Source: an uncultured Schlesneria sp.
GTDB taxonomy: Bacteria; Planctomycetota; Planctomycetia; Planctomycetales; Planctomycetaceae
Assembly: GCA_903834925.1 (NCBI GenBank)
Contig: CAILLA010000256.1
Span: 1-55,522 of the forward strand
Reading direction: 5' to 3'
DNA: 55,522 bases
Below are positions 32,244-51,600 of this stretch, piece after piece (within the stretch, counting starts at the first letter, position 1; the number at the start of each line of letters is the position of its first letter). The notes under the pieces are model-generated. The model did not search any database. It had not been told where the DNA came from and saw nothing but the letters and a program-made list of their open reading frames with translations. The translations under genes and the position numbers were made by a program.

Positions 32244-32277
32244 AATGGCCGTGCGTTACTTCAAACGCACGGCCATT
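32244..32277. terminator. Bidirectional hairpin overlapping the carbonic anhydrase stop
   Basis: Perfect 14-bp arms (AATGGCCGTGCGTT, 32244-32257, and its complement 32264-32277) flank a 6-base loop. It lies between the convergent HEAT and carbonic anhydrase genes. The stop codon of the latter (32256-32258) is inside the stem. Part of the stem therefore encodes the last anhydrase residues (AVRLK). Confidence 0.7.
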
Positions 32278-33122
32278 TCTCGTGCCAGAGCTTCAAATTC
32301 CGCCGAGTCTTTTGGAGCGTCGGCCAGATTGATCAGGGTGTCACGTTCCGGCACATGGGTGCAAAGCGGTGGCATGCAGACGTGATGCGAACGGAGATCA
32401 TAAACACCATAGAGCACCCGTACGTCCGCGTGCCTGATACGATCATTCGCGGCCCGCACGCTGTGAGCGGCAGAGGCGGCATTGAGGCAAACAGCACTCT
32501 CAATGAGTGCTGCCCGGTAGCAGGGAGAACTTGGGGCATCAGGACCCCACACTTCCAGAAATCCCATTGCGGCACGGTGTACCGACACGAAAATATGTCG
32601 CAGAATCGATTTCACCCCCAGCGACATCGAATCTAACGAATATTCTTTGGGATCAAGATACGCATCAACAGCCGCCGTGACCGCGCCGCAACCGCTGTGC
32701 CCCATGACCACGACCAGCTTGACACTTTCGCTGAGTTCTTTCAGCGCATAATCAATACTTCCCCAGCATTCATCGGCGAGGACATTGCCGGCGACTCGAA
32801 CGACAAATAATTCATTGAATCCCTGTCCGAAAACCATTTCGATCGGGACTCGTGCATCGGAACAACCAACCACGATTGCAAAGGGATCCTGCCGAGGGAC
32901 GTCATCGCCAGTCGGCGTGTGGCCAAAATTCAGACCCGTACATTCGATAACGTAACGGGGTTCACCCGGGGATAACGAACCAATCTGACAACTGTTCATC
33001 CAATCGGCGAACATTCGATTGCCGACTTCAAGCTCGCGCTTCGCGTGCTCAGCGTCCAGCGGCGCCGGCTTAACGGACGTGTTTTTTGGATCAAAACGGT
33101 AGATGTAATCGATCGTTTTCAT
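32256..33122 (-). CDS. Beta-class carbonic anhydrase
   Basis: A zinc enzyme of 288 residues that interconverts CO2 and bicarbonate. The zinc and catalytic motifs are CSDARVP (about residue 86), with its Asp-Arg dyad, and GHSGCGAV (about 141-147). The substrate-pocket segment VVRVAGNVL lies between them. Family members are normally 200-230 residues; here about 50 extra residues precede the core (including a segment with no known motif) and about 50 follow. The cytoplasmic enzyme may supply bicarbonate for pyrimidine or carboxylation reactions. The ATG 33122 start has no strong ribosome-binding site. It follows the metal-ATPase cluster on the same strand after a 163-base gap, but membership in that cluster is uncertain. 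Confidence 0.9.
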
Positions 33123-33285: not shown

Positions 33286-34122
33286 TCATGCGCCAGCTGG
33301 AGAGTTCCGAAGAAATCCGCCGGTTTCAATGACGGCATTGCCTTCTTCCGTGGATTCGATCACAGGGATTTGTGACACCGCATAAAGCCCTAAAACGCTT
33401 CCAAACGCCATTCCGGCGTACACAATCGGAATCGGTGGCGAAAAGATTAATCCGACCACGATGATGACGATTGTCAAAAGATAAGCCTCGAACTGGACGC
33501 GACGACTGATCGCTCCATGTTCCTGCCAATCTCGGATCATTTGCCCGAACATCTTGCTTTTCATCACCCTGTCGCGAAGCTTCGGCGACGCCTGTAACGC
33601 GAAATGGGCGGTCAACAGGACAAATGGAACCGTGGGGATTCCTGGAACAATCAATCCAACCCAAGCCATTCCAAATGACGCAAGAGTCAAAATCCCATAA
33701 TTCAGTTCTCGCATTCGCTGTCGAAAAGAGCGAGAACCTGGCAACAGGGGACCAAATCGATTGATCGAAGGTGTTTCGATCCTCGGTGACAAGTCAATGC
33801 TCGAAACCTCTGCGAAATTGAATTCGGAATTGTTCAATGCGCGCGAACCTGATTGTGTACTTCGCGACACAGCCTCTGTCGTCAGCGAACGCAGCGCACT
33901 CGCCATCCGCCGAAGGATTTCGTCCGGTTGTGTTTCTGAGTCAAACACCACCGAGATGCGCGGACTTTTGAACCAGGCAGTCCGTGGATGGACCGATTCG
34001 ACCCCATCAACATGGCTGAGTGTCTGACTCAAGAGCACAAGCTGTTCGGTCGACAGACGGGAGCACCACCGATCAAAGATCAGCGTCAATTCGGGCGACT
34101 TACCAAGAATTCGAATTGCCAT
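33286..34122 (-). CDS. HMA-like domain fused to DUF454 (YbaN) membrane domain
   Basis: A 278-residue protein, last gene of the nine-gene cluster. The N-terminal ~80 residues show a ferredoxin-like HMA pattern without CxxC (LSHVDGVESVHPRTAWFK...ISVVFDS), similar in layout to the HMA_2 domains of the two ATPase-like proteins upstream. After a linker, residues 140-250 match DUF454: GMAWVGLIVPGIPTVPFVLL, then ASPKLRDRVM..SKMFGQMIRDW and GAISRRVQ, then a second pair of helices. DUF454 is a small inner-membrane family of unknown function. GGGAAA precedes the ATG. It lies 35 bases after the small paralogue gene. Confidence 0.78.
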   Translation of the reverse strand: MAIRILGKSPELTLIFDRWCSRLSTEQLVLLSQTLSHVDGVESVHPRTAWFKSPRISVVFDSETQPDEILRRMASALRSLTTEAVSRSTQSGSRALNNSEFNFAEVSSIDLSPRIETPSINRFGPLLPGSRSFRQRMRELNYGILTLASFGMAWVGLIVPGIPTVPFVLLTAHFALQASPKLRDRVMKSKMFGQMIRDWQEHGAISRRVQFEAYLLTIVIIVVGLIFSPPIPIVYAGMAFGSVLGLYAVSQIPVIESTEEGNAVIETGGFLRNSPAGA

Positions 34123-34157
34123 ATCGTCTTTTCCCGTTCCATCAATTGGTTCGACGA

Positions 34158-34472
34158 TTATTTCTTGCTGAATGTCCTGTCGCAGTATTTACTCGCCGCT
34201 TTCGCACCGTCGACAAAACCCCAGACGATGCTGTTATTTTGAGGAATGCTTTTCGCCAACAGAAGGATTGGGAAGGTCACTCCAAACGCTAAGCCATACG
34301 CAGAATTATACATCCCTTTGCCGACAGCGTCGGTGATCTTTGGCCACGTCTCTTCGACTGAGGCTCGCGCATCGGCGATCCCGGATTCAAAAGCGCTTTT
34401 CGTCGTGGCAAGAAAGTTCGTTGAGGTTTCTGCAATCGTTTCGTTGATCGTTACGGCAACCGCGTCAGACAT
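34158..34472 (-). CDS. Small membrane protein, paralogue of the first cluster gene
   Basis: A 104-residue protein. The N-terminal half is an amphipathic, Thr/Ala/Glu-rich helix. Residues 52-75 form a hydrophobic segment (YGLAFGVTFPILLLAKSIP), followed by QNNSIVWGFVDGAKAASKY. The 136-residue product at 41647-42057 has the same layout, with the shared core FPI(x6)IPxNNSxVxGFVDG. So this is a duplicated, cluster-specific family I cannot name. Amphipathic helix plus a hairpin-like hydrophobic segment could suit membrane shaping or a phasin-like coat; this is inference. Confidence 0.72.
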   Translation of the reverse strand: MSDAVAVTINETIAETSTNFLATTKSAFESGIADARASVEETWPKITDAVGKGMYNSAYGLAFGVTFPILLLAKSIPQNNSIVWGFVDGAKAASKYCDRTFSKK

Positions 34473-34585
34473 TTCGAGATCTCACAATTAAGGAATGCCC
34501 CGCCTCGCTGTGGGGCGACAAATCATAGGCACCAACGTTCTCACGTCTCTGACGTCGAACGACACAAACAGATGAAGAATAAAGA

Positions 34586-34699
34586 TTAAGCAATCATCCC
34601 TGACACCGCAACAACGGCAAGAATCCAACCAATTGCAAATGCAAACCCAACAAAAACAGACTCAGCAAATCGCTTTAATGTTCGAATCGCACGAGACAT
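34586..34699 (-). CDS. 37-residue membrane microprotein
   Basis: An ATG at 34699 is preceded by GAGGAT with 8-base spacing on the minus strand and followed by 37 codons ending in TAA at 34586-34588. The product starts with a basic segment (MSRAIRTLKRFAES) and has one membrane helix (VFVGFAFAIGWILAVVAVSG). It lies between the paralogue gene and the PGPGW-like gene, in the same direction, with gaps of about 100 bases on each side. The good ribosome-binding site and the coherent basic-then-hydrophobic pattern argue for a real gene. There is no known homologue. Confidence 0.6.
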   Translation of the reverse strand: MSRAIRTLKRFAESVFVGFAFAIGWILAVVAVSGMIA

Positions 34700-34799
34700 G
34701 ATTGATATCCTCAAATACTTTTTTTCTACGGGTTTGTAATAGCCAATGTCAGCCTACCAACGAATAAAAGGACTTAGCAACACAATTCGCTGAAACATT

Positions 34800-35228
34800 T
34801 TATTTCGATTCTTCGGGAAACCGCTGCTGGAGATTTGAAATAAACTCCCTGATCTGGATCACACCTTCCTTATGAGCGGCTGGAAATCGTCGGCTAAACC
34901 ATCGTTCAATCGGCTCGAACGTCTTTGGCCACATGGTGACACCACCGGCAATTAACAGAGGAGTACCGACAGGGCCCGGCAATAAAACACCAGCGACGCC
35001 CGAAATGATAAGCAGCATTCCGATTTCTGGCGGCAATTTGCCAAGTAACTCGGTTGAATCCTCGCTGCTGACGTCAAGCACGTCATCTTTCGACGTATTC
35101 GGAGCTTCAGTCTGATCACTGTCACTGATCGATTCGTCGTTTCTGCCATCCATCGCACACGAGCCTCTTAAGCACTCCACGTGAGCAGCTTGTGTCGGCG
35201 GTGGTTCAATGGTGTTCAATTCGGTCAC
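34800..35228 (-). CDS. PGPGW-like membrane protein with acidic N-terminus
   Basis: A 142-residue protein. The first 60 residues are acidic and disordered-looking (ESISDSDQTEAPNTSKDD). Next is a hydrophobic hairpin with GVLLPGPVGTPLLIAGGVT, which resembles the PGPGW family of two-helix membrane proteins, then a basic, aromatic tail (PIERWFSRRFPAAHKEG). The GTG start at 35228 has GGGAAA upstream and lies 22 bases after the pseudo-ATPase stop. It is probably an integral membrane component of the cluster. Family assignment is by eye and tentative. Confidence 0.68.
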   Translation of the reverse strand: MTELNTIEPPPTQAAHVECLRGSCAMDGRNDESISDSDQTEAPNTSKDDVLDVSSEDSTELLGKLPPEIGMLLIISGVAGVLLPGPVGTPLLIAGGVTMWPKTFEPIERWFSRRFPAAHKEGVIQIREFISNLQQRFPEESK

Positions 35229-35249
35229 GATGTCTTTCCCTGGTCAACG

Positions 35250-37436
35250 CTAGATATTCAACGGGGTGGACTGGGTGGAATTCACTGGATGAGTATTTGC
35301 CAAGATCATTTGCGTTGACCGTTTAACCTGGCGATCGTAGAGAGCGGTCGCAGCTAATGCACCAAGATTCGTCAACAAAACAACATGCAAGCTTGTTAAT
35401 CCTACAAGAAACGCGCCTGATACTGCCAACATATTACAGGCAACGATGGCGGCCCAACCCTGTTGATTAGGACGCCGTGATTCTTGCAAGACTCGCCATA
35501 ATTCTTCAACTCGATGCGGTTCTGAATGGAGTGCAACAAGGTCCGCACTCGGAGTGCCGAATGAGTTTTCCGGGGTCAGCGAAATCCGAATGAGGTCATC
35601 TTTCGCAAGGCTGTTCAGAAGCTTACCGTTTGCCACAACCGCGACTCGACAATTCTCCGACCGAAGTTCGCGAATATAATTCAAACATTGTGCTTCATTG
35701 CCGTCGATTTCGTGAATATTCAGGCTTCTTGCACCAAAAGTCACTGTGCGGCGACTGATACGATTGGCGTCGAGATCGAGCGTTTCAATGGCATCTGAAT
35801 CTTGAGGTTCGACCCGATTCGTTTCATTGATATCGTTGCCGCGAACGACGATGACGGTTTCCGTTTTTGCCAATTCATGCAATGTTTCGGATTTCTTGAC
35901 CAGCCAACCACGGTTCCACAAATGGCCGACACTGGTGAGAGTTCCAAATCGTTCGGACATCGATGGCCCGGTTGCGAAGTCAGGCCGCAGTACCGCAGCG
36001 AGCGTCGTCAGGTCGCCGACCATCAAGGCCGCTGTACCTGTCGCAAAGGTATAGGGTACAAAACCGGAAGCCGAAACATGGCTCCGTTCAGTTGGACCTC
36101 CTTCACCCGGCAATTCTGCGATCGATGCCAGAAGCGTTTCCCGGACTTTTGCGACGCGTGTCTGTTTGTCGACAGCCGTGACCCTGACGCGCAACTGTCC
36201 CGCTGTCAAAAAAGATCCTGCGTAGACAGAATCTCCGGTTGTACGCGGCGAAATTCCTTCACTTCCCCGAACGCACCTTTCGTCAAGTAATCCGTCACCG
36301 CAAACGACAACCCCGTCATAAGGAACTGTTGTTTGCGGTTCGACAGTAACAATCGTCCCGATCAAACATTCTGGAAATCGCTCACCATTCATTAAGAGAT
36401 TGTGATGGGACCGACTGATGACGATCGGCAGTTGCGATTCGCTTTTTAATTGATCCGCAATTTTTCGCAGTCGACGACTCGACCAACCATGCCAACAGGT
36501 AATCGAAGCTTGCATCATTGCCGCTGCGAGGAATTGTCCGCTGATCAGGGTTGTTCCCATGATCACGGTATAAAGTGAGGCGACACGCCATTTCAACGTG
36601 CAAAGTTCAACAATACCCTTTCCCATCGTTTTCAGGTTGAATCCGACGAGCGCGGCGGCTGTCACGGGCGACAGACCCGGCACAAAAAACTCTGAGGCAA
36701 CAGCCAGGCTCATACATGTTCCGCTTGCAACCCATCGGCTGGTTGGAGGGCCCGAGAGCAGCCTGATCTGATCTGACTTGTCAGAGAAAACGCGTTCCAG
36801 TTCCAGGGCCAACTGGTTTTCGTTCGTGCTTGACTGGTTGAATGTGACCAGTACGGAACCCGTCGTTGCAGAGACGGAAACGGCCAAAACACCCGGTATC
36901 CTCCCCAGTGATTCTTTAATCCGACCTGTTAGATCGCAGTCCCCTCGCACCAGTGGGTGACGGATTCTGACTCGACCAGGAAGCGAATGAACGATGATTC
37001 CAGCCGTCGTCCCTGTTTCCGTTTTCCGCAATTGCAGCCGATCGATCGAAGCGTAGTCATCGCTGATCAAAGCAATAGAAGAACTTGCATCGCGAAGTCG
37101 ACTCGAGATCAATTTCAAAGATTGATTGGGTAAGGCGCTGTCTTGAGGAACCTTTACATTCTCATCAGAAACATTCGAACGGGATGTTTCATCCTGCTTC
37201 CATTGAATCGTTGCGGTTTGTTTGCGTCGATCGAGTATCACAGTCTCGACGCATTCGATGGCAAGTAATCGACCAACGAATTCTCTCGTCAGATTCCAAG
37301 GCTGGTCCCCCCCAAGCAGGGGAGACTGTAAAGTCACCCTGCCTGATTCTCGGTCAACAATAAGTTGAGTACCTTGAGACATTTGACCACAGCCGAGGGC
37401 TGCCTTAATGAGTCGAATTCCTGAAGTAGATTTCAA
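35250..37436 (-). CDS. P-type ATPase-like pseudoenzyme with two HMA-like domains
   Basis: A 728-residue protein with the layout of the intact ATPase at 38557 but lacking its active residues. N-terminal HMA-like domain (about 22-85) and HMA_2 domain (about 145-215, IIVHSLPGRVRIRHP...TGSVLVTFN) have no CxxC. Membrane helices follow (about 238-305). The actuator loop reads RGSEGIS instead of TGES (about 390). The ion-helix region reads DFATGPSMSERFGTLTSVGHL. The phosphorylation segment reads TVIVVRGNDINE instead of TVxFDKTGTLTx (about 530). No GDGxND hinge is present, and the C-terminal helix pair is retained. The frame is long and uninterrupted, so it is likely a maintained pseudoenzyme. The TTG start overlaps the upstream stop (TTGA); ATG 37382 is the alternative. 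Confidence 0.85.
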   Translation of the reverse strand: MKSTSGIRLIKAALGCGQMSQGTQLIVDRESGRVTLQSPLLGGDQPWNLTREFVGRLLAIECVETVILDRRKQTATIQWKQDETSRSNVSDENVKVPQDSALPNQSLKLISSRLRDASSSIALISDDYASIDRLQLRKTETGTTAGIIVHSLPGRVRIRHPLVRGDCDLTGRIKESLGRIPGVLAVSVSATTGSVLVTFNQSSTNENQLALELERVFSDKSDQIRLLSGPPTSRWVASGTCMSLAVASEFFVPGLSPVTAAALVGFNLKTMGKGIVELCTLKWRVASLYTVIMGTTLISGQFLAAAMMQASITCWHGWSSRRLRKIADQLKSESQLPIVISRSHHNLLMNGERFPECLIGTIVTVEPQTTVPYDGVVVCGDGLLDERCVRGSEGISPRTTGDSVYAGSFLTAGQLRVRVTAVDKQTRVAKVRETLLASIAELPGEGGPTERSHVSASGFVPYTFATGTAALMVGDLTTLAAVLRPDFATGPSMSERFGTLTSVGHLWNRGWLVKKSETLHELAKTETVIVVRGNDINETNRVEPQDSDAIETLDLDANRISRRTVTFGARSLNIHEIDGNEAQCLNYIRELRSENCRVAVVANGKLLNSLAKDDLIRISLTPENSFGTPSADLVALHSEPHRVEELWRVLQESRRPNQQGWAAIVACNMLAVSGAFLVGLTSLHVVLLTNLGALAATALYDRQVKRSTQMILANTHPVNSTQSTPLNI

Positions 37437-37651
37437 GAAGTAATTGACCCGGATCTATACAATCGTAACTGTCCAGAATCTGCGAGTCCGAGCAGATAAT
37501 CTGTTTCGAATGTATGTTTCTCATCAATGACGCCGACCATTTTCTCCAGTCGTCGTCGATTTTGACGAACTTTCACACCCAGATATGTCAGTCCTACGAC
37601 ACCCATGATGCCAACCAGGATTCCACCCAAACCACCTTCGGTCATGGTCAT
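37433..37651 (-). CDS. Small single-helix membrane protein
   Basis: A 72-residue protein. A Gly-rich hydrophobic helix (GGLGGILVGIMGVVGLTYLG) is followed by a basic cytoplasmic stretch (KVRQNRRRLEKMVG) and a soluble tail ending RSGSITS. AGGAG precedes the ATG pair at 37651 and 37645; spacing is better for the second. The stop overlaps the TTG start of the pseudo-ATPase, indicating translational coupling. I do not recognise the family. It may be an ATPase accessory subunit. Confidence 0.68.
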   Translation of the reverse strand: MTMTEGGLGGILVGIMGVVGLTYLGVKVRQNRRRLEKMVGVIDEKHTFETDYLLGLADSGQLRLYRSGSITS

Positions 37652-37772
37652 TCACTCCTATTCCAAATTCATTTGTCACCAGGTTTGAACGATCTGTATC
37701 GCTTAAGCCACTTCGAAACCAATTGCGATTGATCAAACAGATCCCAAGTCAGTACCAATATCCAGGCAGGTA

Positions 37773-38555
37773 TCAAACGGGCGCAAACTCAAGTAAATGC
37801 GCTGTCCCTTCTCCGATCAATTCAATTGTCCCCTGAATTGTTTGCCGATGTCCACTCTCTTTGACGATTGTCGACATTTGCGGACCATTCGATGCCATTG
37901 ATAATTGAATGGCCCACTTTAACATGGAAATTGCAGCTTCTGGATTTCGCATGTGCCCCAGGCAAAGACGGAAGCCATATCCCTTTGGATTTTTTTGTCT
38001 CGACGCTTCTCGATCCAAAACAATCAAAATTGGATCAGCACCGACTAATGACGGATGCTTTCTGATAAATTCCAAAGATTGCTCTTCGGACAAGACATAA
38101 AATCGCTGTCCGTGCAAGTATTCAGCAAACACCGGCAAGTTTTCTCGAACAGCCTTACCGACGTCGTTGTTCCATCCGGAGTCCACGAGAAATACGTCCA
38201 AAATCCTGCTTGAAGTTGTCGATGGGACCACTGCACTCAATGCTGGATTTGCAACTGGTGAAGAGGCTTGCTGGTCTTCTTGCCGAGTTGAGACGTGTGC
38301 CTGGTTTGCTTCGGAACTTTCCGCTTGTTTCATTTCCGCGTTTATCTCTGGCGAAGCATCACAATGATCATTCATGCTGGATTTTGAGGTGAGTTCGTTT
38401 TTTTCGGGGCTTTCAATTGAGGGCGAAGTCGGCTCGGAAACCCGCTTGGATGTGGACTTGCGTGCGGGTTTTGACGTCACCTGCTTTTCGCTCGGGTGAG
38501 GTCCTGTGGCTGAGGCCGCTTTCTTTTCGGTCATGTTCGGTTCTCTGGGTGCCAT
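37773..38555 (-). CDS. Hypothetical protein with Lys/Ser/Pro-rich N-terminus
   Basis: A 260-residue protein with ATG one base after the ATPase stop codon (TGAGATG), so probably translated by the same ribosomes. Residues 1-110 are low-complexity: first basic (KKAASATGPHPSEKQ, SKPARKSTSKR), then acidic. The C-terminal ~140 residues look folded: ILDVFLVDSGWNNDVGKAVRENL, a VLSEEQSLEFIRKHP helix, DPILIVLDREAS, LCLGHMRNPEAAISMLKWA. This alternates strands and helices like a small alpha/beta domain. There is no membrane segment. The basic disordered region followed by a compact domain could tether a cargo or membrane; the function is unknown. Confidence 0.72.
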   Translation of the reverse strand: MAPREPNMTEKKAASATGPHPSEKQVTSKPARKSTSKRVSEPTSPSIESPEKNELTSKSSMNDHCDASPEINAEMKQAESSEANQAHVSTRQEDQQASSPVANPALSAVVPSTTSSRILDVFLVDSGWNNDVGKAVRENLPVFAEYLHGQRFYVLSEEQSLEFIRKHPSLVGADPILIVLDREASRQKNPKGYGFRLCLGHMRNPEAAISMLKWAIQLSMASNGPQMSTIVKESGHRQTIQGTIELIGEGTAHLLEFAPV

Positions 38556-38556
38556 C

Positions 38557-41346
38557 TCAGGCTGGTTGCAAATGAACTTGAGGCTGATGCGCGGCCTCAA
38601 GTGACTCCGTTACCATCAACGACATTTCCTTTTGAGCTTGCTTCATGGCCTGCTCGTCTGCGATTCGCTTCAGCGGCATCATACCATTTGCCAGCGCAGC
38701 CATCGCTGCGACGTTGTTGGTAAAAACCGATGCCATGATTCCGAAGCCCATTGTGAACGCACCAACGATACACAAGGCGTTTGGCGCCAGGATCAGATAC
38801 CAGCTGTTTTTGACATTGCGGTCCAGATCGCGTGCGATATCACGCAGTTCGCACAATCGATGCAGGCTCTCTTCCATGAACACGATCTGAGCCGTATCGG
38901 TTGCGATCGATGACGCACCACGTAGCGAGATCGAAACGTTGGCTTTTTTGAGAGCAATCGAATCGTTGATCCCGTCCCCAACGAAGCAGACCTTCTTGCC
39001 TTGTTTCTGCAATCGTTCGACATAGTCGGCTTTGTCACCGGGCAACACCCCGGCAAAGTATTCATCCATCCCCAGGCTTTCAGCGAGCTTTTTCGTCGGT
39101 CCTTCGTGGTCGCCAGAAATAATTGCGATGTGTTTGATCCCGCGATCTCGAAGTCCCTTGATGATGCTGATGACTTCGGGACGCTGCGAGGCACGAAGCT
39201 CGATCAACCCCGCAAAAACGCCGTCTAAAGCACACATGACGAGCGTGTGACCTTCGCGATGAGCGATTTCGACAACTTCTTGAACTTCAACTGGTATCTC
39301 GATGTTTTCCAGCTTGATATAGCGGCTGCTGCCTACCATCACTTTGTGACCATCGATTACGGCTTCCAGTCCGTATCCAACCTGATATTTCGAATCATCG
39401 ATCGGCAACATCGGCAGGCCGGTCTTCTCAAATTCCAACACAATCGATTTGGCGATTGGATGTGAGAATCGCTGTTCTGCCGATGCGACAAGTTGCAACA
39501 ATCGATTTCGTTCGTGACCGTTGAATGCAATCACATGGCCGACTTCGGGGCGTTCACGTGTCAAAGTGCCGGTCTTGTCGAACAGCACGGTATCGATGTC
39601 GTTCATCAACTCGAGCGCTCGACCATCTTTGACCAGGATTCCCTTATGAGCACAGAGGGCCAGCGATGTCAGCATCCCCAGCGGTGCCGCCATGCGGATT
39701 CCTGTTCCGAAGTCACTGTTGAGAACCGCGACGGCTCCTTGAGGGCCAAGTGTTGCCAGACCTGCAGCGGCGATCGCGAGAGTCGGAATCACCGCCTTAT
39801 CAGCCATCCGCTCACCTTTATGCTGACTGGTCAGCTTGTATCCTGCCGAATCGTTTAGAATCTGTGCGATTTTGGCGGACGTCGTATCGCAGCCGGCATT
39901 TTCGACTTCGACGTAAACCTTACCTGCAACCATCAGGGTCGCGGCAAACACACGATCACCAGGCGATTTTTCGGAAGGAGTCGATTCGCCGGTCAGCGCA
40001 TGCTGATCGATCATCGCCATCCCCTCTTTGACAAAACCATCGACGGGAACAGCGTCGCCCGTGTGGACAACGATGATGTCACCCTTCTGCAACTCCTCAA
40101 GCGGTGTCTCAACCTCTTCGCCATCTTTAAAGAGTCGAACGAATTGTGCCTGCTTGCCGAATGCCTGGACCAACAGCCGCTTCGAATCGTCCTGAGTTTT
40201 CTTAACGAGCATGCGACCGAAGCTCAGACACAGACACAACACCGAACCGGCAAAAATCTGCCCTGTCGCGACACAGCCTGTGACCACGATCGCGTCAAGT
40301 ACGTCGACACCCAATCGGCGTTCGTGAACGAGCACATGATAAGCTTCTTTAAATGTCGTAATCGATGTATAGCCGAATAGAAGTCCGGCGGCGGGAAGCA
40401 GCGGAGGGACTGCGAATTGAGCGACGGCGGCAATGGGGACCGAGGCGACTGCGAGCGGAAAATCGAGGTCTGGAGGATCAAGTTTTTCCGACAGTTCCAT
40501 TCGTCCAATGGCACGATCAAGAATCGTGAGAACCTGATCCTTGCGAAGCTCCCGCTTGTTATAAGTGATCAACAGTGAACCGGTCGACGGTCGGGTTTTG
40601 TAACTGTCGATCCCGAGGATGCTCATGAGTTCGCGTTCGATCTCCTGGCAAACTTCTTTCCGGCGATAAAGTGCCGGGTGCTTTAAACGCAATCGGCCCG
40701 TTGATTCATGAACGATTTCCCACGTTGTTGCATGCGTCCCATTACGGCCAACCCGCGTGACCCCTTTTCGGTCCGGCATCAGCAGAATATCACCTAACGA
40801 GACTTTCAGGCGTTCAGCTGTGGGCTTGGTATTCGTCACATGCGCTGTTCCGTTATGCCCATGACCATTGTGAAATCCGTTGGGAGTAGGCTTTCCATTT
40901 GGGCTTTTCAGCGATGTCTCCGTCGAACTGAAAATCGCGTCCGTTGTTTCATTGAGGAACGAATTTCCGTTAACCGAACTCACACCTGCGGAAACCAGCG
41001 TTCTTGCCGCGACTTTCGCCTTCTTCGCACGTGACGGGGATTCTAATTGTACTTCAGAAGAATCGGACTTAGGTGAAGCTTTAGCTGGTACTCCAGCCAG
41101 GCTTCTCATGTATCCAACAACGGCCGACAAGAATTGAGACGTTGAAGATTGACTATGTCGAATCTCGGCCACAGCCTGTCGTCCGGCCACACCACCACCA
41201 TGTATCGCGATCTGTGCTGCGGGATCAGCCTCGAGTAAACAACCAAGAAAGGCTTTCGTGTAAGGATGATTCAAATCCGCAAAAAGTGTCGCGCTGCCTA
41301 TGCGAAGCGAACCTGGACCAGACGGAAGGACCACACAATCCAACAT
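38557..41346 (-). CDS. P1B-type ATPase with HMA_2 domain, no CPx motif (FezB-like candidate)
   Basis: A 929-residue metal-type P-ATPase. ATG 41346 has GGAG 8-9 bases upstream; in-frame starts further upstream lie outside the conserved region. Residues 1-190 are a poorly conserved, Gly/Asn/His-containing region (NGFHNGHGHNGTAH). An HMA_2 domain without CxxC spans about 205-265 (IVHESTGRLRLKHP...TGSLLITYNK). The catalytic core is complete: TGES (about 452), DKTGTLT (about 590), the P1B SHPIAKS motif (about 630), GDGINDS (about 792). The ion-binding helix reads NSDFGTGIRMAAPLG instead of carrying CPC/SPC, so it is not a classical Cu or Zn pump. Members of the P1B-6 group drive ferrosome formation; membership here needs alignment. 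Confidence 0.88.
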   Translation of the reverse strand: MLDCVVLPSGPGSLRIGSATLFADLNHPYTKAFLGCLLEADPAAQIAIHGGGVAGRQAVAEIRHSQSSTSQFLSAVVGYMRSLAGVPAKASPKSDSSEVQLESPSRAKKAKVAARTLVSAGVSSVNGNSFLNETTDAIFSSTETSLKSPNGKPTPNGFHNGHGHNGTAHVTNTKPTAERLKVSLGDILLMPDRKGVTRVGRNGTHATTWEIVHESTGRLRLKHPALYRRKEVCQEIERELMSILGIDSYKTRPSTGSLLITYNKRELRKDQVLTILDRAIGRMELSEKLDPPDLDFPLAVASVPIAAVAQFAVPPLLPAAGLLFGYTSITTFKEAYHVLVHERRLGVDVLDAIVVTGCVATGQIFAGSVLCLCLSFGRMLVKKTQDDSKRLLVQAFGKQAQFVRLFKDGEEVETPLEELQKGDIIVVHTGDAVPVDGFVKEGMAMIDQHALTGESTPSEKSPGDRVFAATLMVAGKVYVEVENAGCDTTSAKIAQILNDSAGYKLTSQHKGERMADKAVIPTLAIAAAGLATLGPQGAVAVLNSDFGTGIRMAAPLGMLTSLALCAHKGILVKDGRALELMNDIDTVLFDKTGTLTRERPEVGHVIAFNGHERNRLLQLVASAEQRFSHPIAKSIVLEFEKTGLPMLPIDDSKYQVGYGLEAVIDGHKVMVGSSRYIKLENIEIPVEVQEVVEIAHREGHTLVMCALDGVFAGLIELRASQRPEVISIIKGLRDRGIKHIAIISGDHEGPTKKLAESLGMDEYFAGVLPGDKADYVERLQKQGKKVCFVGDGINDSIALKKANVSISLRGASSIATDTAQIVFMEESLHRLCELRDIARDLDRNVKNSWYLILAPNALCIVGAFTMGFGIMASVFTNNVAAMAALANGMMPLKRIADEQAMKQAQKEMSLMVTESLEAAHQPQVHLQPA

Positions 41347-41646
41347 TTCGACAACTCCAAAACATGCAAAACTTCGACGATACCGAATCCCATTTGGATT
41401 TGTAGAATCCTCCACAAATCGGCTGGCAGTGGTCATGCATCCGTGCATCTTCTGGAGCAGCACTCTCAGGCAATACGCAACTCGCGTCTACCAACTCCAC
41501 GAATTAATTTGGCTTCAAGCGATCCGCTCGAATTCACTGACCTTCGTGGTACAAACTGCTTCAAGGGGGATAAAGCGAATTTGCGTGATGGGCAATCATT
41601 AATAGTACGCAAGTGGCATACCATATTTCTTACGACAGGTTGACAA
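41347..41646 (-). other. 300-base gap between the first cluster gene and the ATPase
   Basis: I see no gene here. In-frame sequence upstream of the chosen ATPase start runs to 41463 and could extend the protein by 39 residues if ATG 41463 is used. The ribosome-binding site GGAG favours 41346. No hairpin or repeat is obvious. Confidence 0.5.
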
Positions 41647-42057
41647 TTAAGCGGGTTCGAGCGCTCCCGCTCCGTCTTCCACAATTTCTGAGTACTCCTT
41701 AGAAATTTCATCCTGTTCGTCGCGGGCGAGACGGCCAGACCGTGCTCGTTCCATGAATTGATCGACCGACGAATTCGCCGATGCGCCGCCATCAACAAAG
41801 CCATCCACCAAACTATTGTTCTTGGGAATGTAGTGGCAGGCGACGAAAATTGGGAAACAGACTCCGTAGGAAAACGTATAGCAAGCGGTGTAGGCCAACT
41901 TGCTTGCAAAATTGGCATTCGCATATTTGCTGGTCCATCCTCCGACTGCAGCGCTGGTTGCGCCGACACCGGCTTCAAGATTTGCAGCTGCAGATTCCAG
42001 TTTGTCCGCGACATCCGCCAGAAAAGCGTTTGTCTCAGGGGAGGTTTCATTCGCCAT
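41647..42057 (-). CDS. Small membrane protein, first gene of the metal-ATPase cluster
   Basis: A 136-residue protein, paralogous to 34158-34472. An amphipathic Ala/Glu-rich N-terminal helix (FLADVADKLESAAANLEAG) precedes a hydrophobic region (LAYTACYTFSYGVCFPIFVAC), the shared motif HYIPKNNSLVDGFVDGG, and an acidic-basic C-terminal tail (RSGRLARDEQDEISKE). AAGGAA lies 10 bases before the ATG. As the most upstream gene it is probably the first product of the transcript, and the amphipathic-plus-hydrophobic layout suggests membrane association. The family is unknown to me. Confidence 0.75.
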   Translation of the reverse strand: MANETSPETNAFLADVADKLESAAANLEAGVGATSAAVGGWTSKYANANFASKLAYTACYTFSYGVCFPIFVACHYIPKNNSLVDGFVDGGASANSSVDQFMERARSGRLARDEQDEISKEYSEIVEDGAGALEPA

Positions 42058-42653
42058 TATTCAGATTTCCTTCAGGTTACTCAGACGGTAAAACTCTCTG
42101 CATTGGCGCTTGTTCCTTTCACGCCAGCGATACCACTTAAAAACCTGAATAACTCCGTTCAATCAGTTCAGGATCACCAAAACACAAAGTTTTTGGCGAA
42201 AATCACTCGCTGCGCACTTCGACAGCAACGTCCCTTCAACAGTATTCCCAAGACGAGGCTCGGTCAAACAGTTTTTCTACCCAAACATCATATTTTTCAA
42301 TTCTTAACACCCGGTGTACCGCGTTAGTCTTGATTTCACGTGACAATGGTACACACGCATCAATCGATGCCATTGAATCTGGAATTCCGTCATTGCCAAG
42401 CAATCTGCCAACTGAGCGGAAATTGACCACGCACGCGAAGAATCAACGTTGAAGGCTCAGCCGCCGTTCGTATGATCGCCCAGTCCACGTCAACTCCAAT
42501 TTCTCATGGCGATGGGGAACGACACATTTCCTCGCTGGCAAAAAACTCGCCTTGCACCCTTCCCAACGCGACCACTTCAAGACAAAATGCCTTGGCCCAC
42601 TCGGTAAGATCGTTTCGATCAGAATGTTTCCATGTTTCCTTGGGAAAGTTCCG
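42058..42653. other. 596-base divergent spacer, no gene recognised
   Basis: Separates the minus-strand metal-ATPase cluster from the giant plus-strand gene and should hold both promoters. I found no Fur-box-like GATAATGATAATCATTATC pattern, no sigma-54 site and no long palindrome. Short frames on the minus strand overlap the giant gene's 5' end and look spurious. Confidence 0.5.
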
Positions 42654-45600
42654 ATGATTTCAACTCGCTTCACTACACTGTGCCGGATTGCAGTCTGTTG
42701 CCTGGTTATCGGAATAAGCAGAATAGGCGCGGCCCAGGAGCCGAATGCTGACGATGTCAAAGAAAAGGCGATCGTTGACCGTTTCGTCGTCGTCCTCGAA
42801 AAGAACCCGCGACGGGGTACCGCGTTGGACAAAGTCTATGGTTACCACGTTGAGCGTGGGTCACTCGATGGCCTCGTCAAAACCTATCGCGAAAAAACTC
42901 AGAGTCTAAAAGGTGCGGATGCCGGATCGGCGTGGCTGGTGGTCGGATTGCTGGAGTCACTGCGAGGGCAGGACGCTGCGGCAGTGACGGCATTCGAACA
43001 GGCCGAGAAATTATCACCACAAAACTATCTGGCTTCGTACTACCTGGGACAGTCTCTGGTACTCGTCGGCCAACCGGACAAAGCCGCCGAAGCCTTCGAG
43101 CGTTCGATCCAACGTAAACCGGCTCAGGCCGATCTGCTGGATATCTATCAGGCGTTAGGCCGAGTCTACCAGCGGGCGCAAAAAACGGACCAGGCCCTGG
43201 AAGTCTGGAGCCGGCTCGAAAAACAGTTTCCGAATGACGCTCGTGTTCAGGAACAGATCGCCACAACCTTGCTCGAAGAAAATGAATTCGCAGCGGCATT
43301 GCCCAGGTACGAAGCGCTCGCCAAAAGTTCCAAAGATAAATATCGACAATCTCAGTTTCAGATGGAGGCAGCCGGGTTGAAGGTTCGACTCGGCAAGGCC
43401 GACGAAGGGATCGCAGAACTCGAAAGCCTGCTCAATCAACTGCTGCCCGAGAACTGGCTGTACCGGGACGTAAGGCGACGAATTGAAGCGGTTTATCTTC
43501 GTACCGACGATCAATCGGGGCTGGTCAAGTACTACGAAAACTGGATCGAGAAGAAACCAACCGACCTGGACGCCATCGCGCGACTGGCCCGATTGCTGGC
43601 CGGGTATGGTCGCGGTCCTGAATCGCAGGAATGGTTACAACGCGGATTGAAGCTCGCCCCGAAATCCAAAGACCTCCGTCAGACCTTGATTAATCAATTG
43701 ATCTACGAGCAAAAATATGCCGAAGCGATTGCACAGTATGAACAACTCGACAAGCACGAACCGAACAATCCCGATACGTTGCGAGAATGGGGGCGCCTGG
43801 TCCTCAAAGATACCAAACAGGAAGAACCTGCTAGAAAAAAACTTGCTGCAAACATCTGGCGTCGACTGACAACCGCAAAGCCTAAAGATCCCCTGGTCGC
43901 TTCCCAAGTCGGCGAATTGTTCCGACAGGCGGAAATGACCGAAGAAGCGCTCGAACTCTATCGCAAGGCAACCGAACTGGCTCCTGATCAGGCACAATAC
44001 CGCGAGTATCTTGGTGAGTACTATCACTCGCTAAAACGAAAAGACGAAGCTCTGGCAGAATGGCGAGAGATTGCGGCCGGTAAACTGAAGTCTCCTGCCA
44101 ATGTCGCCCGGCTTGCCGAGGTCCTCGCCAGCTTTGGCTACCTGCCCGAGGCGGTCGAGACCAACGCGGAAGCCTGCAAACTCGATCCGAAGGATTTTCT
44201 GCTTCAGGTCAAACAGGTCGATCTGCTGGCTCAAGCCGACAAGCACGACGACGCGTTGTTGCAATTGGCGGTCGTCAAGAAGATCGCGGCAAACGACGAG
44301 GAACGCGAGGCGTGGATTTCTCGAGACCTGCGCGAGTTGCAGGCGACCGAAAAGCTGTTGGCTCGCATCACCGAAGTTCGGAATGAACTGGAAGGAAAAG
44401 GAACCCCAACCGATACCAGATCGAACGAGGAAAAGGGGGCACAATGGTTCTGGCTAGCGCGGGCATACGAATCAGAACGACAGTTGAAAGATGCGGCTCA
44501 GGCAATCACGAAGGCAAGCGAACTCGTCTCACAATCGATTCCCATCCTGATGGCCTCGGCAAGGATTCAGGAAGCGCAGAACAATCTGCTGGCGGCGGTT
44601 GAGATCAATACCAAACTCGCGGCGATCGACCGAAGATATCGCACGGAATATCTCAAGCAGGTGGCGACGCTCGAACAGAAACTCGGACGAAAAGACAAAG
44701 CCGTTCAGGCCGGACGCGACCTGATCGCTGCCGCGCCTGGAAACCCCGAACTCTACGAATTCTTCAGCCAGCTTTGCTTTCAATTGGGAGAGAACGAAGA
44801 AGGACTGGGTGCGTTACGTCGTTCGGTCCGCGTCAATCCAACGGAACCGAAAGGCTTGCTGCTTCTCGCTTCGGCACTCGGTGACCAGTTCCGCACTGGT
44901 GAAGCAATCGAACTCTATTGGCGAGCATTTGAAAAGGCGGCTGGCTTGGAAGAACGCCTGGGTGTCGTTCCGAAATTGACAGAGCTCTATCTGAGAACAA
45001 ATCAGTTTGACCGGATTCTGGAACGACTGGAACGTCAACGTCGGGAACCAAATCAACAACGAGAAATGACGATCTGCCTGGCCCAGGCATATCAATCGGC
45101 GGGTGACGATGGCAACGCACGTCAAGAGTTGGAAAAGCTGCTGACCGAAGACACCCGCGATACACAGTTGTTGACGCAACTGGTGAAGCTGTGCGAATCA
45201 GACGGCGATTTCGAATCGGCGATCAAGTTCCAGCAACAGTTGCTCAAGTCGATGCCGGGCAAAGAAGGGATGATGCGGCTTTCGCAATTATTGTCCAAAT
45301 CCGGCGAGACAGACGAAGCGATTGCGATCATGAGTCGCCTTACGATCGAAGAAAAGGACCCAGAAACCGTCCTCAAATCAATCGACGCGATGTTATCGCA
45401 GGGGAACTACGAAAACGTCTTACTTGTGGCGTCCAAGCTGGCCCGCGATCAGCCAACCAATTGGGAAGTCTTGTATCGTGAAGGATTTTCGTTGGGCAAA
45501 ACCAAGGATAAGACGGCAGAAGCCAAAGCAGTCTTTGAATCGATCCTTGCCATGAAATTCTCTGACGACGAGCTTTGCCTGGCCGACAAAAATAAGGCGA

Positions 45601-48600
45601 AAAAAGGGCAGGGAATTACCCGTTCCTCGACGGCGAATTACGATTTCTCGAATCCGTTGAACCAACGAGCTAGTTTGCTGACCGCATTTCGCCAGTCAAT
45701 TGGCCTCCAAGAAAATCGAAATGTTGGCTCTCAGTCACAGTTCCTGACCCCGCGAGACTTTGGTCAGGCTCGACTGGCAAGTTTCGGGTGGCTTTTATTA
45801 TTCGCTCGAAATGCAGGAACCGAAGCAGAGTTTCTTAACTTACGTCGCGAGGTCGGAATGCAAGCCAGCAGCCGGCGTGAGATTTTTGATTGGTACTACC
45901 TGGGAGGATTGGCAGGGAACGGTCGGGATAAATACCTGATCCTCAAAAAATTGTCGCAGCGCCCAGATGCCGATAACGATATTAAGCAGTTGTACCTGAA
46001 CTCTCTGATGGGCCGTGGCATCGATCCAGACGAAGCCAAAGTTGCCGACGAAAAAGCATCCATTGACGAATCACCGAATTCATTACCGAAAATATCGAAA
46101 CTCGACGAAGACGAGATTGAGCACGTACTCGCCTGTTACAGGTCACTCGACGATAAGCCTCTGTTGAGAAGCAATTCGCAATCTTTTCTGCAGATCGTCA
46201 GCGATGAATTGATTCGGTTAGGCCGTAAAGAAGAAGCGGACGCATTGCGACAAGCGACGATCCAGAATGCAAAAACTCAGCTTGAAATTGCATCGCTGAT
46301 ACCCGGTGCTGTCGAGCGGAATGATTTTGAACTTTCCCTGACACTCTTGAACCGCCTGAACGATCTGAAAACCGACCCCACATCCAACCCGACGACACTC
46401 GCGCGAGGCAATTTCAACTACGCTCAAAACCAGTTAATGCCCGATGCAATGGCGCAATCGATTTGCAGTCTGATGGACAAACGGGTTCAAAGCGAACAGC
46501 TCAAAGATGTTCTGACTCTGTGGGACTGGTACGTCCCCACCGCTGTCGCTCGCAACCAGGCGTCGAAAGCCACTGTCAATAAGCGTAATGCCTCGTCGAA
46601 TCAAAGTCTTCCACGTGGCTATGTCTTTATCTGGCGAAACAATTCGAATCAGTATGAAAGTGTTGACTTCCCGGCACCCAACGAAGTCTTCGATCAAGCG
46701 TCGATCCAGGTGCTGCGTCAAGCCTATTCACTTTACAATGACGCAGAAAAAGCAAAAGAACTGACCGAACATTTTCAGCAGAAGCTGGCCGATGCAAACA
46801 CACCCAAAGAACAGAAAAACTTCTTGAAATTCGGTTTGGGTTATCTCCACTGGTGGTTGGCCGAAAAGGATGATGCGTTAACGGTTTTGACTGACGCGAC
46901 AGGTGAACTCCAAGACAGTGATGAAATGCGGTTTGAGCTTGCTCGCGTCCACGAAAAACGGGGCGAGCACGACCTTGCTCTTCAAATCGTCGATTCACTT
47001 CCGGTATCAGATCAGCGAGCGATGCAACGGCGGGAAATCACTGCGCTTCGAATGGCGGTCAACAGCGGAAATATTGACCGAGCACGAACGGCGGCTGAGC
47101 GACTGTTCGGATTAAGGCTCGATTCGAACGTTCAGATCCAGTTGTCACAGCAGATGCACCAGCTTGGCATGCACGAACAGGCTGAAGCGGTACTGGCGCG
47201 AGCCGGACGTCAGGCAGGTAACAGAACCGAAGTCCTGGCCAATCTGATGCAGCAGTATCAGTCGCAAGGCAAGAACGAAGTCGCAACACAAATGGCCTAT
47301 CAGTTGTTGCGACGTTCCGGCAGCAGAAATACGGGAAACCGGACAATGTCAAACCAGAACGAAATGGCCACGCGACAGCATGCCTTCACGGTCCTCAAGC
47401 GGTCTGGCAAACTTCCCGACATGATCAAGAAAGTCGAAGGCCAAATCAAGAATTCGCCCAAGTCGCAAAAACTTGTGGAAACTTTGATTGAATATTACAT
47501 GGCTAACGGCGAGGACAAAAAAGCCGCCGAACTCGCGTCCAGCCTGGCGGAAACGAAGCAGGACGATCCCCAGTTTCGGTACAACCTGGGCAAGCAATTG
47601 ATGGAACAAGGGAAGCACGCCGAAGCGGCAACTCATTTGAAAATCGCGTTCAAAAAGGATTCGCGACTGATGAGGAACGACTTCTGGCAAATCATGAATT
47701 CGTTCCAGAACGCCGACAAAGTCGAAGAGCTTGCCGCCATCTTCGACGATATTGACTTTAAAGGATTTCGCCAGAATCCCTGGGAAATCACCAACATTAT
47801 CAGCAATTTGTCCTATCAGGAAAAATCAAAAGCCCAGGCAATTAAACTGTTCAAACGAGCCTGGGAACAAATGCCTGATCAGCGTTCGCAAATTCTTTCC
47901 AGCCTCAATAACGAGATCTTCTGGCAGATGCCCGAGATCTACGATTACGCCAGGGAAGGAATCATTCCGCAATCGGAAGCGTCGCTTGCCAATACCAAGT
48001 GGCCAGGTTTCGGAAGCATCCACAATTGGGGAAACCAGGACGGAAAAATCGACACTTTGATGACTCGATTCCTGACACTGGCAGGATCGAAGAAAAAGCT
48101 GGAAGAACTGGCACAACAAGTCGAAACAACGAGAAAGAAACTGCCGCAGTGGGAAGCGGCCACGGCCCTATTGGCGTTAATCGATCTGAGACGCGGCAAG
48201 ATTGATTCGGCCAAAGAGACGTTTGAAAAAATGCTGCCGACTTTCAAGGCGGCCAATTCAGCACAACGAGGTCAATACACGCAATGGGAGATCGGCCAGG
48301 AATTGATGGCACACGAAAAGTGCGGCGAACTGGCGGTGAAATACCTCGAGGCAGCCAGCAAAGATCCAAACGTCATTCAGATGGCTCAGATGAATGGATT
48401 CCAGTACTCACCCGGAAAGTCGTTGATTGCGATCTATACTCGTCAAGGCCGCAAAGACGATGCACGTCGTTTACTGCTTTCATCCACGAATATCAAAAAC
48501 TCGCGTCAGCAGGGAAACGAAGCCTGGGAAGCCTATCAGCGTCTTCAAAGCGTGACGTCACTGGCGAATGAAGTCTCGCAACTCGGGTTTCCGATGGATG

Positions 48601-51600
48601 CGATTCGCTTGTATCAGGAACAACTGGGGCGATCCGAAGATTTTGTCATCGGAGCCAGCGTTTTTGGAAGCCTTTCCCAGGGGCGCCAACAGATGGAGCA
48701 TTACAAAAAGCAAATTCAAACCGGAATGCAGACTGCGATTCATGAACTACGTCCCGAATTACTGCCGCAGTTGCTGATGGATCGCAGCGCGAAATCCGTT
48801 GAACAAATTCCGAACACAAAGGAGCAAGCCGAATCAGCTTCCGTCGACCTTTGCCTTTTGCTCGAATCTCGGGAACTTGATCAGACACAACTCACGAGCG
48901 TGATGGGCAAGCTGGTTGCCAGTTTGGCAAAAAGTCCTGCATTCGTTGAACCGACTCGAAAAGGACTGGCTGAAGCGATCGCACAACGACCAGAAGATGT
49001 CTCGTTAAAGATTCTTGAGGCGCTGATTGCCAACAGTCTGAAAGAGACAGAAAAGTCCGACGACGCAGTCAGGCAACTTGCTGCATTTGTGGAACAAACA
49101 CCACTTGAACCGCCGCCCGCCAAAGGTGGTTTCACGGTGAAGCAACGCGAAGCCGCGACGCAACAGGTCGGATTGTGGCTGGTTGCTCGCGAATGCCTGA
49201 GACAGACTCCACTTCGTACAGACGGACTGAAACTGGCTGAGCGGGCTTATGAAGCGTCCCGGCGTCTTGCTCATCACGACTTTTCCCTGGCGATTTTGCG
49301 TGAATGGGGCAGCATCGCACTTAAAGCTGGTGACAAACAGGAAGCGACTCGCCGCTGGTCCGAGATGATGGATATTGTCCTTCCCAAAACGGGTGACAAG
49401 TCGAAACTGCAAACATCCGAAGAGGAAAAGTCTGAAACGGTCGAGGCGAAACCGACCAAGAATCCCTCGAAACCGGCAGTTGTGTCGGGTCAAAAAGAAA
49501 AATTGACGGTCGTCACGCTTGGACAGTTTGAACAGTTGTCTCAATTGGCCAAACTGGCTGCGGAAAACGGACTTGAAGAACTGTCGTTCGACATCATGGG
49601 ACGAGCACTTCAATCCGGACCACCAATTGAAGCGATGCTCGCCATCGACATTAACCAGAGTGTTTCCGCAAGGAATAACGAGGATGACCAGTCCTCGCCC
49701 GTCGCAGCCAAGGTTCAAGAGCGGCTGACGACCATTGAACGTGTCTGGCGACAAAAGGGCGTTTCCGATGAAGCGATTTACAATGTCCTTGAACGGGCGG
49801 TCGTTCCCGACGCTCGTCCCTTCGAAGTCTTTCTCCATCCACATTCTCTTTCGGATGAAAATCAGAACGGCCAACTTCACGCCGTACTGCAAACACCGCA
49901 AAGCGTCGGAGCACTGCTGGCGGCTGCAACCGTGAAGTCGGGCAAAATCGACAGACTGAAACAGTTGGTCGAGCCACGGCTGAAGCAGCCGTTGGGTGAA
50001 GTTTCCGGCCGAATTCTGCTTTGCCAGGTCGCTTTGGCGGCAAAGGACTTTTCGCAGGCCAGAGATCAGATCGCGTTTTTAACAAGTCGCCTTAAGCAGG
50101 ATTCGTCACACACATCAAACGAACTTGCGAGCCATGTTGCGATTGCCGCTTTATCAGAGCCTGAACTTGCATCACAGGCGGCGGAACTCTTGGAACTTGT
50201 GATCGACCATCTGGCTCAGACAGTCAGTCCCGGACGCGGAAATGGTTCGGCAGAACCACTACGGACATTCCGTTTCTCACTTGCGCGATCGCATTTTCGA
50301 AATCACAATTCCGCTGCCGGCAAACGTCAGTTGGAAGAATATCTCTCGTCGCTGGTCAATCTCTATCAGAACTATGGTGGAGATTACGGCCAATACATGC
50401 GAAAGCTGGAATTCCTCAAGGTTGCGGAAGAATACGCTAAGGGAGGGCAACGAGCGGACCTGCTTGATTGCCTGGGCCGATACGCGGACTTGCCAGCGAC
50501 GCAAAATTATGGACAAGTCGGAAACTACAGCGGCACAATGATGTCCGCGTTGGCAACGTTGCCGCAAGCAGACCGCTATGAATTGCTGAAGACTTGGACG
50601 ATGCCGACCGCCGATCGAAAATCGGTCCGGATGATTGCCGGCGTTCTGCCTGGGTCTGATTCACCGCAAGCCTTTGATGGGTTGCTCGGTGACGGTCCAC
50701 GGCCCCCACGCGACTCGCAGATCAGCAGTACTGCGAATTTCTTGATTCAGGCGGCAATCGATTCCGGTCGGCTGGAGGAATTGCAAAAAGATCTGCTGCC
50801 GCACGCCGAACAGAATGTCGAGCAATCAAAATTCCTGCTTCAACTGACACGGATTGCTCAGGGAAAAGGATCGGAAGTCTTGCCGGACCTGCAACAGTTG
50901 ATCGCTGAAAGAAAACGTCCGAAAGAGGGCGTCGAAGCCCAGCGGGAGAATCAGAATTCGCATGACTACTTGTCTGACGCTGTTTTGGCCAAGGCTGCGA
51001 TTTCTGATGTCAGTCTGCGAGATAAGGGCCGCGAATTAATGGCGATATCAATGGCCCGAACGACATACGGGGTGACGCCGATCACGTTCATGAGTCGACA
51101 CGATTATTTCGTCCCAGTTCTCGAAGCAAAAACCGTTGAACGACTCGATCACGAACCCTGGAACACGGGCCTCGCACATTGGGTCTCGACTGCTAGTGAA
51201 TTCACTGCGAATGTGTTTGGAGCGACGGAATCAACGGGGACTGTCCCAACCTGGTGGCTGGCGAACGAAGGGCTTCTGTGTCACGTCTTCGGCTCTGGGG
51301 CCAACCAGATGCATCTGAAATATCCCCTGATCGGCGAATTTGAAATCCGCTTTGATGCCTGGTCAGGATACGGAATGGATAACGCCATGGGATTGGGTTA
51401 TGGAGGTGTTACTTACAGTGCAAATGACATTGCGTACTCCCAGAATTATGGCTATCAACAAAACGGTCGCGCGTTGCAGGAAATGAAATTTGCCCGGATC
51501 AAACACAACCGATTCAATCAGGTGCGGTTGCAGGTTGGCCCCGAAAAAGTGAGTTACTTTGTCAATGGAGATTTGATCCAGGAAGAGTCAAAACCTGCGT

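Follow-up and report, generated by a model that had tools for sequence, protein, structure and literature searches.

The window analysed here, 55,522 nucleotides of contig CAILLA010000256.1 of an uncultured Schlesneria sp. (positions 1 to 55,522), carries a cluster of nine genes, all on the minus strand, that runs from 42057 to 33286 in the order smA, ATP1, dis, tm72, ATP2, pgp, p37, smB, D454. The core of this system is a live P1B-type ATPase (ATP1), a dead paralogue of it (ATP2) and a family of small membrane proteins (sm). We interpret the cluster as encoding a conserved membrane pump complex in which a live/dead ATPase pair would handle a hard cation, perhaps Ca2+, and we give this interpretation, which does not imply an organelle, a probability of about 0.45. 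It is carried by the conservation of the genes, the loss of catalytic motifs from ATP2, the common origin of the two ATPases and the linkage of a Ca2+/H+ exchanger to the system in relatives; from these we infer the pairing, the substrate, the direction of transport and the compartment served.

The live ATPase and its dead sister

A first-pass annotation of this DNA had described a P1B ATPase lacking a CPx motif and, beside it, an inactive paralogue, and both descriptions agree with what we find. ATP1 has an HMA_2 domain and no CPx; in NCBIfam it scores above the cut-off of TIGR01525 (heavy metal translocating P-type ATPase) and below those of the copper and cadmium subfamilies, the latter missed narrowly (310.9 vs 313.5 bits). 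Of the 82 sequences assembled for ATP1, one of them a separate CPC pump (the stray L099_3692), 81 have DKTGT; the exception is L093. By contrast, DKTGT, TGE[SA] and GDGxN are each absent from every ATP2 sequence (0/55 for all three), the window's copy retaining, by Pfam, HMA_2 and a portion of E1-E2. Because an aspartate still stands at or near the phosphorylated position in many ATP2 sequences, it is the absence of all three motifs together that marks ATP2 as dead. ATP2 also appears constrained: between the window's gene and those of loci L039 and L042, nonsynonymous divergence (dN) is 0.17–0.18 and synonymous divergence (dS) 1.2–1.5, a difference that argues against decay, if only approximately, dS being near saturation and these two pairs the only measurable ones. 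The same relatives bear on the coupled gene starts proposed in the first-pass annotation, one of which is doubtful: ATP2 probably does not begin at the overlapping TTG (37436), as matches in L039, L040 and L042 begin at residue 19, where L043 and L044 have an ATG (37382 in the window).

ATP1 and ATP2 are sister clades (0.999 in the first tree; ultrafast bootstrap (UFBoot) 100 for the pair in the second), which points to origin by a single duplication; the ATP2 branches are long, leaving the internal order of that clade weak. Together they group with HMA2/P1B-6-type ATPases (0.998–1.0 in the first tree, UFBoot 99–100 in the second), outside the main CPC clades; firm clustering with Cu, Zn or K pumps, which would have spoken against the earlier proposal, was thus not seen. 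The CPC reference pumps in these trees come from the window's genome and its relatives and are labelled by motif, not by experiment. Methylococcus capsulatus holds further HMA2 ATPases besides ATP1, of which two were aligned and have CPC, and the CPC-bearing HMA2 ATPases of M. capsulatus and Methylotetracoccus fall among the CPC pumps in both trees.

The HMA2 superclade splits into two branches (0.998 and 0.982 in the first tree; 99 and 100 in the second). One, with DYxC in transmembrane helix 4 (TM4) and HN in TM6, holds sequences from Rhodoblastus, Azomonas, Cereibacter and two planctomycete families; the other holds ATP1 and ATP2 together with Gloeothece and Deinococcus sequences. The window's ATP1 reads DFGTGIRMAAP in TM4 and NN in TM6, and its family D[FLM]GTGIRM and, in rows that reach TM6, NN or NQ, with no CPC in the TM4 column, L099_3692 being the stray in both helices. 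HN is kept in the Rhodoblastus, Azomonas, Cereibacter, Priestia, Rhodococcus, f49 and f39 sequences (f49 and f39 are planctomycete families), and because it is also found in Priestia and Rhodococcus, ATP1 looks derived. Threonine stands in ATP1 where the TM4 cysteine would be and asparagine where the TM6 histidine would be; the obvious soft ligands are gone, so the site should favour a hard cation. An AlphaFold model of ATP1 (mean predicted local distance difference test score 81) has as its best PDB matches the P1B pumps ATP7B and CopA and zinc and cadmium pumps, matches of a predicted structure that speak for its fold, not its substrate.

A comparable arrangement occurs in Gloeothece verrucosa, whose sequences, among the nearest outgroups, share the DFGTGIR and NN motifs and likewise place a dead ATPase beside a live one. 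In the dead protein DKTGT reads FAAKS, and since it groups with its own live neighbour (UFBoot 100), it arose separately. The Gloeothece pair differs from ours in this independent origin and in its partners, DUF5132 and DUF1345, with no sm, dis, tm72 or pgp found in the stretch. On the plasmid (NC_014533.1, L071, 7908-13390), the dead ATPase follows the live HMA2 ATPase 1.7 kb on, with the DUF1345 and DUF5132 genes between them, and is annotated solely as an HMA2 domain-containing protein; a search for this pseudo-ATPase in other plasmids returned its own record alone.

Conservation and neighbouring genes

A GTDB scan gave 133 relatives, and locus counts here rest on the best 80 of these, overlapping and related genomes included; genes were counted by scanning open reading frames with hidden Markov models of the window's sequences and those of relatives, and contig ends truncate many of the loci. 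The nine same-strand genes, grouped as one cluster in the first-pass annotation, hold together: the full order recurs in four relatives of the same genus (L039, L042, L043, L044), and a contig end cuts a fifth (L040). Three genomes of another family keep a shorter order, sm-ATP1-dis-tm72-ATP2-pgp in L045 and L046 and sm-ATP1-ATP2-pgp-pgp in L047, and conservation of gene order extends to other genera and phyla. ATP1 had a match at E = 0 in 9 of 59 genomes, namely 6 of 15 from the same genus (the window's own included) and three others of the class; a phylum-wide sample gave such a match in only 2 of 392 genomes, with 12 further genomes at 28–31% identity.

The system is not specifically planctomycete. 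By record title, the best 80 of the 133 relatives belong to Planctomycetota, Methylococcaceae and other Gammaproteobacteria, Alphaproteobacteria and Verrucomicrobiota, with many methanotrophs among the Pseudomonadota; named carriers include Methylococcus capsulatus, Xanthobacter oligotrophicus, Rhodoblastus acidophilus and Azomonas macrocytogenes. Across the 80 loci, sm was found in 67, ATP2 in 56, pgp in 37, dis in 33, tm72 in 30, D454 in 18 and p37 in 9; where more than 3.5 kb was available on both sides of ATP1 (n=42), ATP2 was present in 38 loci and sm in 40. In 56/80 loci an sm gene precedes ATP1 on its strand at a distance of up to 1.5 kb. ATP2 follows ATP1 on that strand in 42 loci, lies upstream but on the opposite strand in 8 and takes other positions in 4.

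On the Methylobacterium plasmid pMRAD05 an ATP1 homologue (48% identity) is closely preceded by an sm gene (E 1e-14), and a CorA gene separates them from an ATP2-like gene. In the PLSDB gene table for this M. radiotolerans plasmid the sm gene (L070 11191-11652) is missing, and the ATP2-like gene (L076 9666-11510) is annotated as hypothetical. Separately, the genome represented by L085 and L041 (G005:C88) has a second, solitary ATP1 copy whose flanks lack sm and ATP2.

The most recurrent neighbour is a Ca2+/H+ exchanger, with open reading frames in 21/80 loci (two of them fragments) from Planctomycetota, Methylococcaceae and one alphaproteobacterial locus; all five exchangers tested score above the TIGR00378 equivalog cut-off. 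Neighbour proteins of 32 of the 80 loci were searched with Pfam (121 drawn up, seven omitted, 114 scanned); Na_Ca_ex came first with 12, and the next family had 4. Background is low: 19 copies in 20 genomes (~121 Mb) predict ~0.2 in the 1.24 Mb of the 80 loci, an expectation to be read knowing that the loci are related to one another and that the linked copies of two genomes are within the background count. In relative G002 the exchanger lies on the same contig, ~13 kb from ATP1. Iron-uptake and iron-storage families are absent from the 25 commonest of the 111 neighbour families in these 32 loci. The commonest neighbour points to Ca2+ and not to iron, on the evidence of gene context in relatives, not in the window's own genome. 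Elsewhere in M. capsulatus (G443, C1:752997-754575), away from the ATP1 cluster, a further Ca2+/H+ exchanger adjoins an open reading frame bearing HMA_2.

Possible function and alternatives

The usual description of a P-type ATPase is of one working chain. In the complex that we propose, ATP1 would hydrolyse ATP and carry a cation across the membrane, with ATP2 beside it as a structural or regulatory half, the working unit probably being the live/dead pair; sm, tm72, pgp and p37 would form a membrane scaffold, and dis would serve as a docking protein with a redox-dead thioredoxin-like domain. Descended from P1B-6-like pumps, ATP1 would export its cation from the cytosol or load it into an internal compartment, and Ca2+ is our best guess because the Ca2+/H+ exchanger recurs in relatives.

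Several observations weigh against this interpretation. At E 1e-30 the exchanger is missing from the window's genome, so that the calcium link reaches the window by orthology only, and 9 of the 20 genomes searched have none (the window's, three more planctomycetes, four alphaproteobacteria and Azomonas). In part of the loci other neighbours recur instead: ExoD in 13 (Alphaproteobacteria, Azomonas, three Verrucomicrobiota and one unassigned) and an amino-acid permease in 11, the two accompanying the system in Alphaproteobacteria, Azomonas and some Verrucomicrobiota. Loss of the cysteine and histidine leaves room for Fe2+, Mn2+, Mg2+ or monovalent ions, and part of the TM4 uniformity is selected for, D[FL]GTGIRM being one of the two GTDB scan patterns. 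ATP2 is missing from the stretch in 4 of the 42 well-flanked loci (L085, L124, L144, L149), and contact between ATP1 and ATP2, like the metal substrate, is a proposal drawn from the genes.

The cluster might instead simply detoxify a transition metal (Mn2+, Fe2+ or Zn2+) by efflux through a pump held in a membrane platform, in the style of the zinc-exporting PacL-CtpC of mycobacteria, an unlikely explanation that still deserves weight. Both systems combine a P1B ATPase with small membrane partners, which in mycobacteria form platforms (PMC9374683), and a CtpC-like Rhodococcus ATPase, so labelled here from its DUF1490 neighbour, lies in the same superclade (1.0 in the first tree, UFBoot 88 in the second). 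Moreover, a further small protein with one transmembrane segment (one-TM) occurs in 30/80 loci, mostly just upstream of ATP1. This family, however, gave a probability of 1% when aligned by hhalign with one DUF1490 protein, a negative result, and DUF1490 was not found in the proteins scanned here. Nor do smA, smB, tm72 and two of the extra small proteins match any Pfam family, in a scan that covered all window proteins but p37. CtpC has both CPC and HN (PMC9374683), whereas ATP1 has neither and offers no thiol ligand in TM4, and the available text of that source makes no mention of a dead ATPase partner for PacL-CtpC.

The first-pass annotation favoured a ferrosome-like iron organelle, in which ATP1 would be a diverged FezB and the small proteins would shape the membrane compartments that it loads with Fe2+. 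What survives of this proposal is a dedicated membrane system with an ATPase of the HMA2/P1B-6 superclade: like the fez clusters of D. magneticus, R. palustris and C. difficile, the window's cluster groups a P1B-6-related ATPase with many small membrane proteins. With the P1B-6/HMA2-type ATPases ATP1 shares the HMA_2 domain and the lack of CPC in TM4, and on a Cereibacter plasmid an HN-type member of the superclade sits amid FeoA and TonB-receptor genes, a single example of a context that fits iron for that branch. ATP1 itself, however, stands outside the HN/DYxC branch, with D[FLM]GTGIRM against DYxC..K in TM4 and NN or NQ against the HN reported for TM6 of P1B-6 ATPases (PMC9374683), and is accompanied by a dead sister and by thioredoxin-like, PGPGW-like and DUF454 partners. 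FezC of D. magneticus has been described as a cytochrome of DUF4405 type (PMC10979944). In 20 genomes the cluster holds no DUF4405 gene, although 15 of them have one elsewhere, and Pfam found none among eight of the nine window proteins (p37 was scanned with NCBIfam only). Work on C. difficile reports a need for FezA and FezB (PMC12574912), and the fez genes of R. palustris number six (PMC12016538). Rhodoblastus and Azomonas carry, in addition to the ATP1 system, a separate HN-type HMA2 ATPase, and the 25 commonest neighbour families, of 111 from 32 of the 80 loci, include none for iron. We therefore regard the iron organelle as quite improbable, and the window's cluster appears, from trees that contain no studied FezB, to be a separate system within the ATPase superclade of the HN-type pumps.

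Loci L060-L069 show HN-type HMA2 ATPases in the planctomycete families f49 and f39. Several f49 loci add to the ATPase an HMA2-like protein, a TM protein of ~62 aa and a one-TM protein of ~110-180 aa, and in this look closer to fez clusters than the window does.

Least probable, in our view, is a complex for regulation or sensing, with ATP2 as the sensor and transport by ATP1 secondary, for instance in envelope or exopolysaccharide homeostasis. Dead enzyme domains often act as scaffolds or sensors, and ExoD accompanies the system in 13/80 loci and EcsC in 12/80; each, however, is confined to a minority of loci, and ATP1 keeps DKTGT in all sequences but one.

A bolder version of the calcium interpretation, a long shot in our estimation, would be a cross-phylum Ca2+ store: a heteromeric live/dead pair, evolved at least twice, that fills an internal membrane compartment or a specialised zone of membrane with the help of its scaffold proteins and, in many relatives, of a Ca2+/H+ exchanger. 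Were this so, the system would be a functional counterpart of the eukaryotic Ca2+ store. That a dead sister is kept beside a live pump in several phyla, and has a second origin in a cyanobacterium, suggests the live/dead pair as a working design, and the system offers a test case for how a thiol-ligand pump lineage could change to a hard cation. Among open-licence papers, searches on P-type pseudo-ATPases with HMA, HMA2 with DUF5132 or DUF454, ferrosomes with Planctomycetes, and thioredoxin-like/P1B heterodimers returned no description of such a system, which appears to be undescribed; it belongs with P1B-ATPase systems, the live/dead pairing being the surprising part.

Partner proteins and flanking genes

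The genes of the cluster and its downstream neighbour are as follows.

41647..42057, minus strand: smA, 136-aa small membrane protein of the sm family, supported by its open reading frame and orthologues
38557..41346, minus strand: ATP1, 929-aa live P1B-type ATPase with N-terminal ferredoxin-like domain, HMA_2 and P-type core
37773..38555, minus strand: dis, disordered N-terminal half and conserved C-terminal domain; alternative start ATG at 38534
37433..37651, minus strand: tm72, 72 aa, single N-terminal hydrophobic helix
35250..37382, minus strand: ATP2, dead P-type ATPase paralogue, 710 aa from the conserved ATG; the open reading frame extends to TTG 37436
34800..35228, minus strand: pgp, PGPGW-like small membrane protein, 142 aa (PF09656 E 0.025, below cut-off)
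34586..34699, minus strand: p37, 37 aa, one hydrophobic helix
34158..34472, minus strand: smB, 104 aa, paralogue of smA
33286..34122, minus strand: D454, HMA-like N-terminal domain fused to DUF454
32256..33122, minus strand: beta-type carbonic anhydrase (Pro_CA, PF00484), directly downstream of D454

Among the window's non-ATPase cluster proteins scanned with Pfam, all but p37, only D454 scored above a cut-off, pgp (PGPGW) and dis being sub-threshold. The HMA-DUF454 fusion of the first-pass annotation is secure in its DUF454 part (PF04304, E 7.7e-23); the N-terminal part is unmatched by the Pfam HMA models, yet its profile is related to the N-terminal domains of ATP1 and ATP2 (hhalign 97–98%). 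Similarly, the disordered, tether-like character ascribed to dis applies to its N-terminal half only: residues ~120-250 are modelled as a confident domain (block means 84–97), for which 28 sequences, the window's among them, were aligned. The 50 listed PDB matches are mostly thioredoxins or thioredoxin-like domains, all weak (best E 0.042, none <=0.001), and the predicted domain looks thioredoxin-like. At the presumed active site an invariant tryptophan is followed by no CxxC, a motif absent from 27 of the 28 sequences; the lone CxxC (L113) sits elsewhere, and L118 has a single cysteine at the presumed site.

The paralogy of smA and smB had escaped the first-pass annotation. Their common motif in the window is about YGxxFPxxxxxxIPxNNxxxxGxxDG, and the family has no NCBIfam match, as it has none in Pfam. 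As for the extra one-TM protein, hhalign gave 6% probability against three small proteins of HN-type clusters, so kinship with these is not claimed, and comparison with sm and with tm72 was likewise negative for common origin.

The carbonic anhydrase adjoins the cluster in L039 and L042 and is not in the fetched stretches of L043 and L044; it is a lineage-specific companion, its membership of the cluster uncertain. An intracellular carbonate machinery of carbonic anhydrase and Ca2+ pump was considered and dropped, the anhydrase standing beside the cluster only in two close relatives; for carbonate-forming magnetotactic genomes, the available text of one source reports no P-type Ca2+ pump, remote homologues not being excluded (PMC11773610). 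Promoters and terminators are no more numerous than in shuffles, and no riboswitch scored above the Rfam gathering score in the window, L132, L103, L146 or L144, the sole match being a tRNA in L103. Divergent from the cluster, at 42552-54275, lies an open reading frame of 3907 aa in which TPR-like repeats are abundant by eye.

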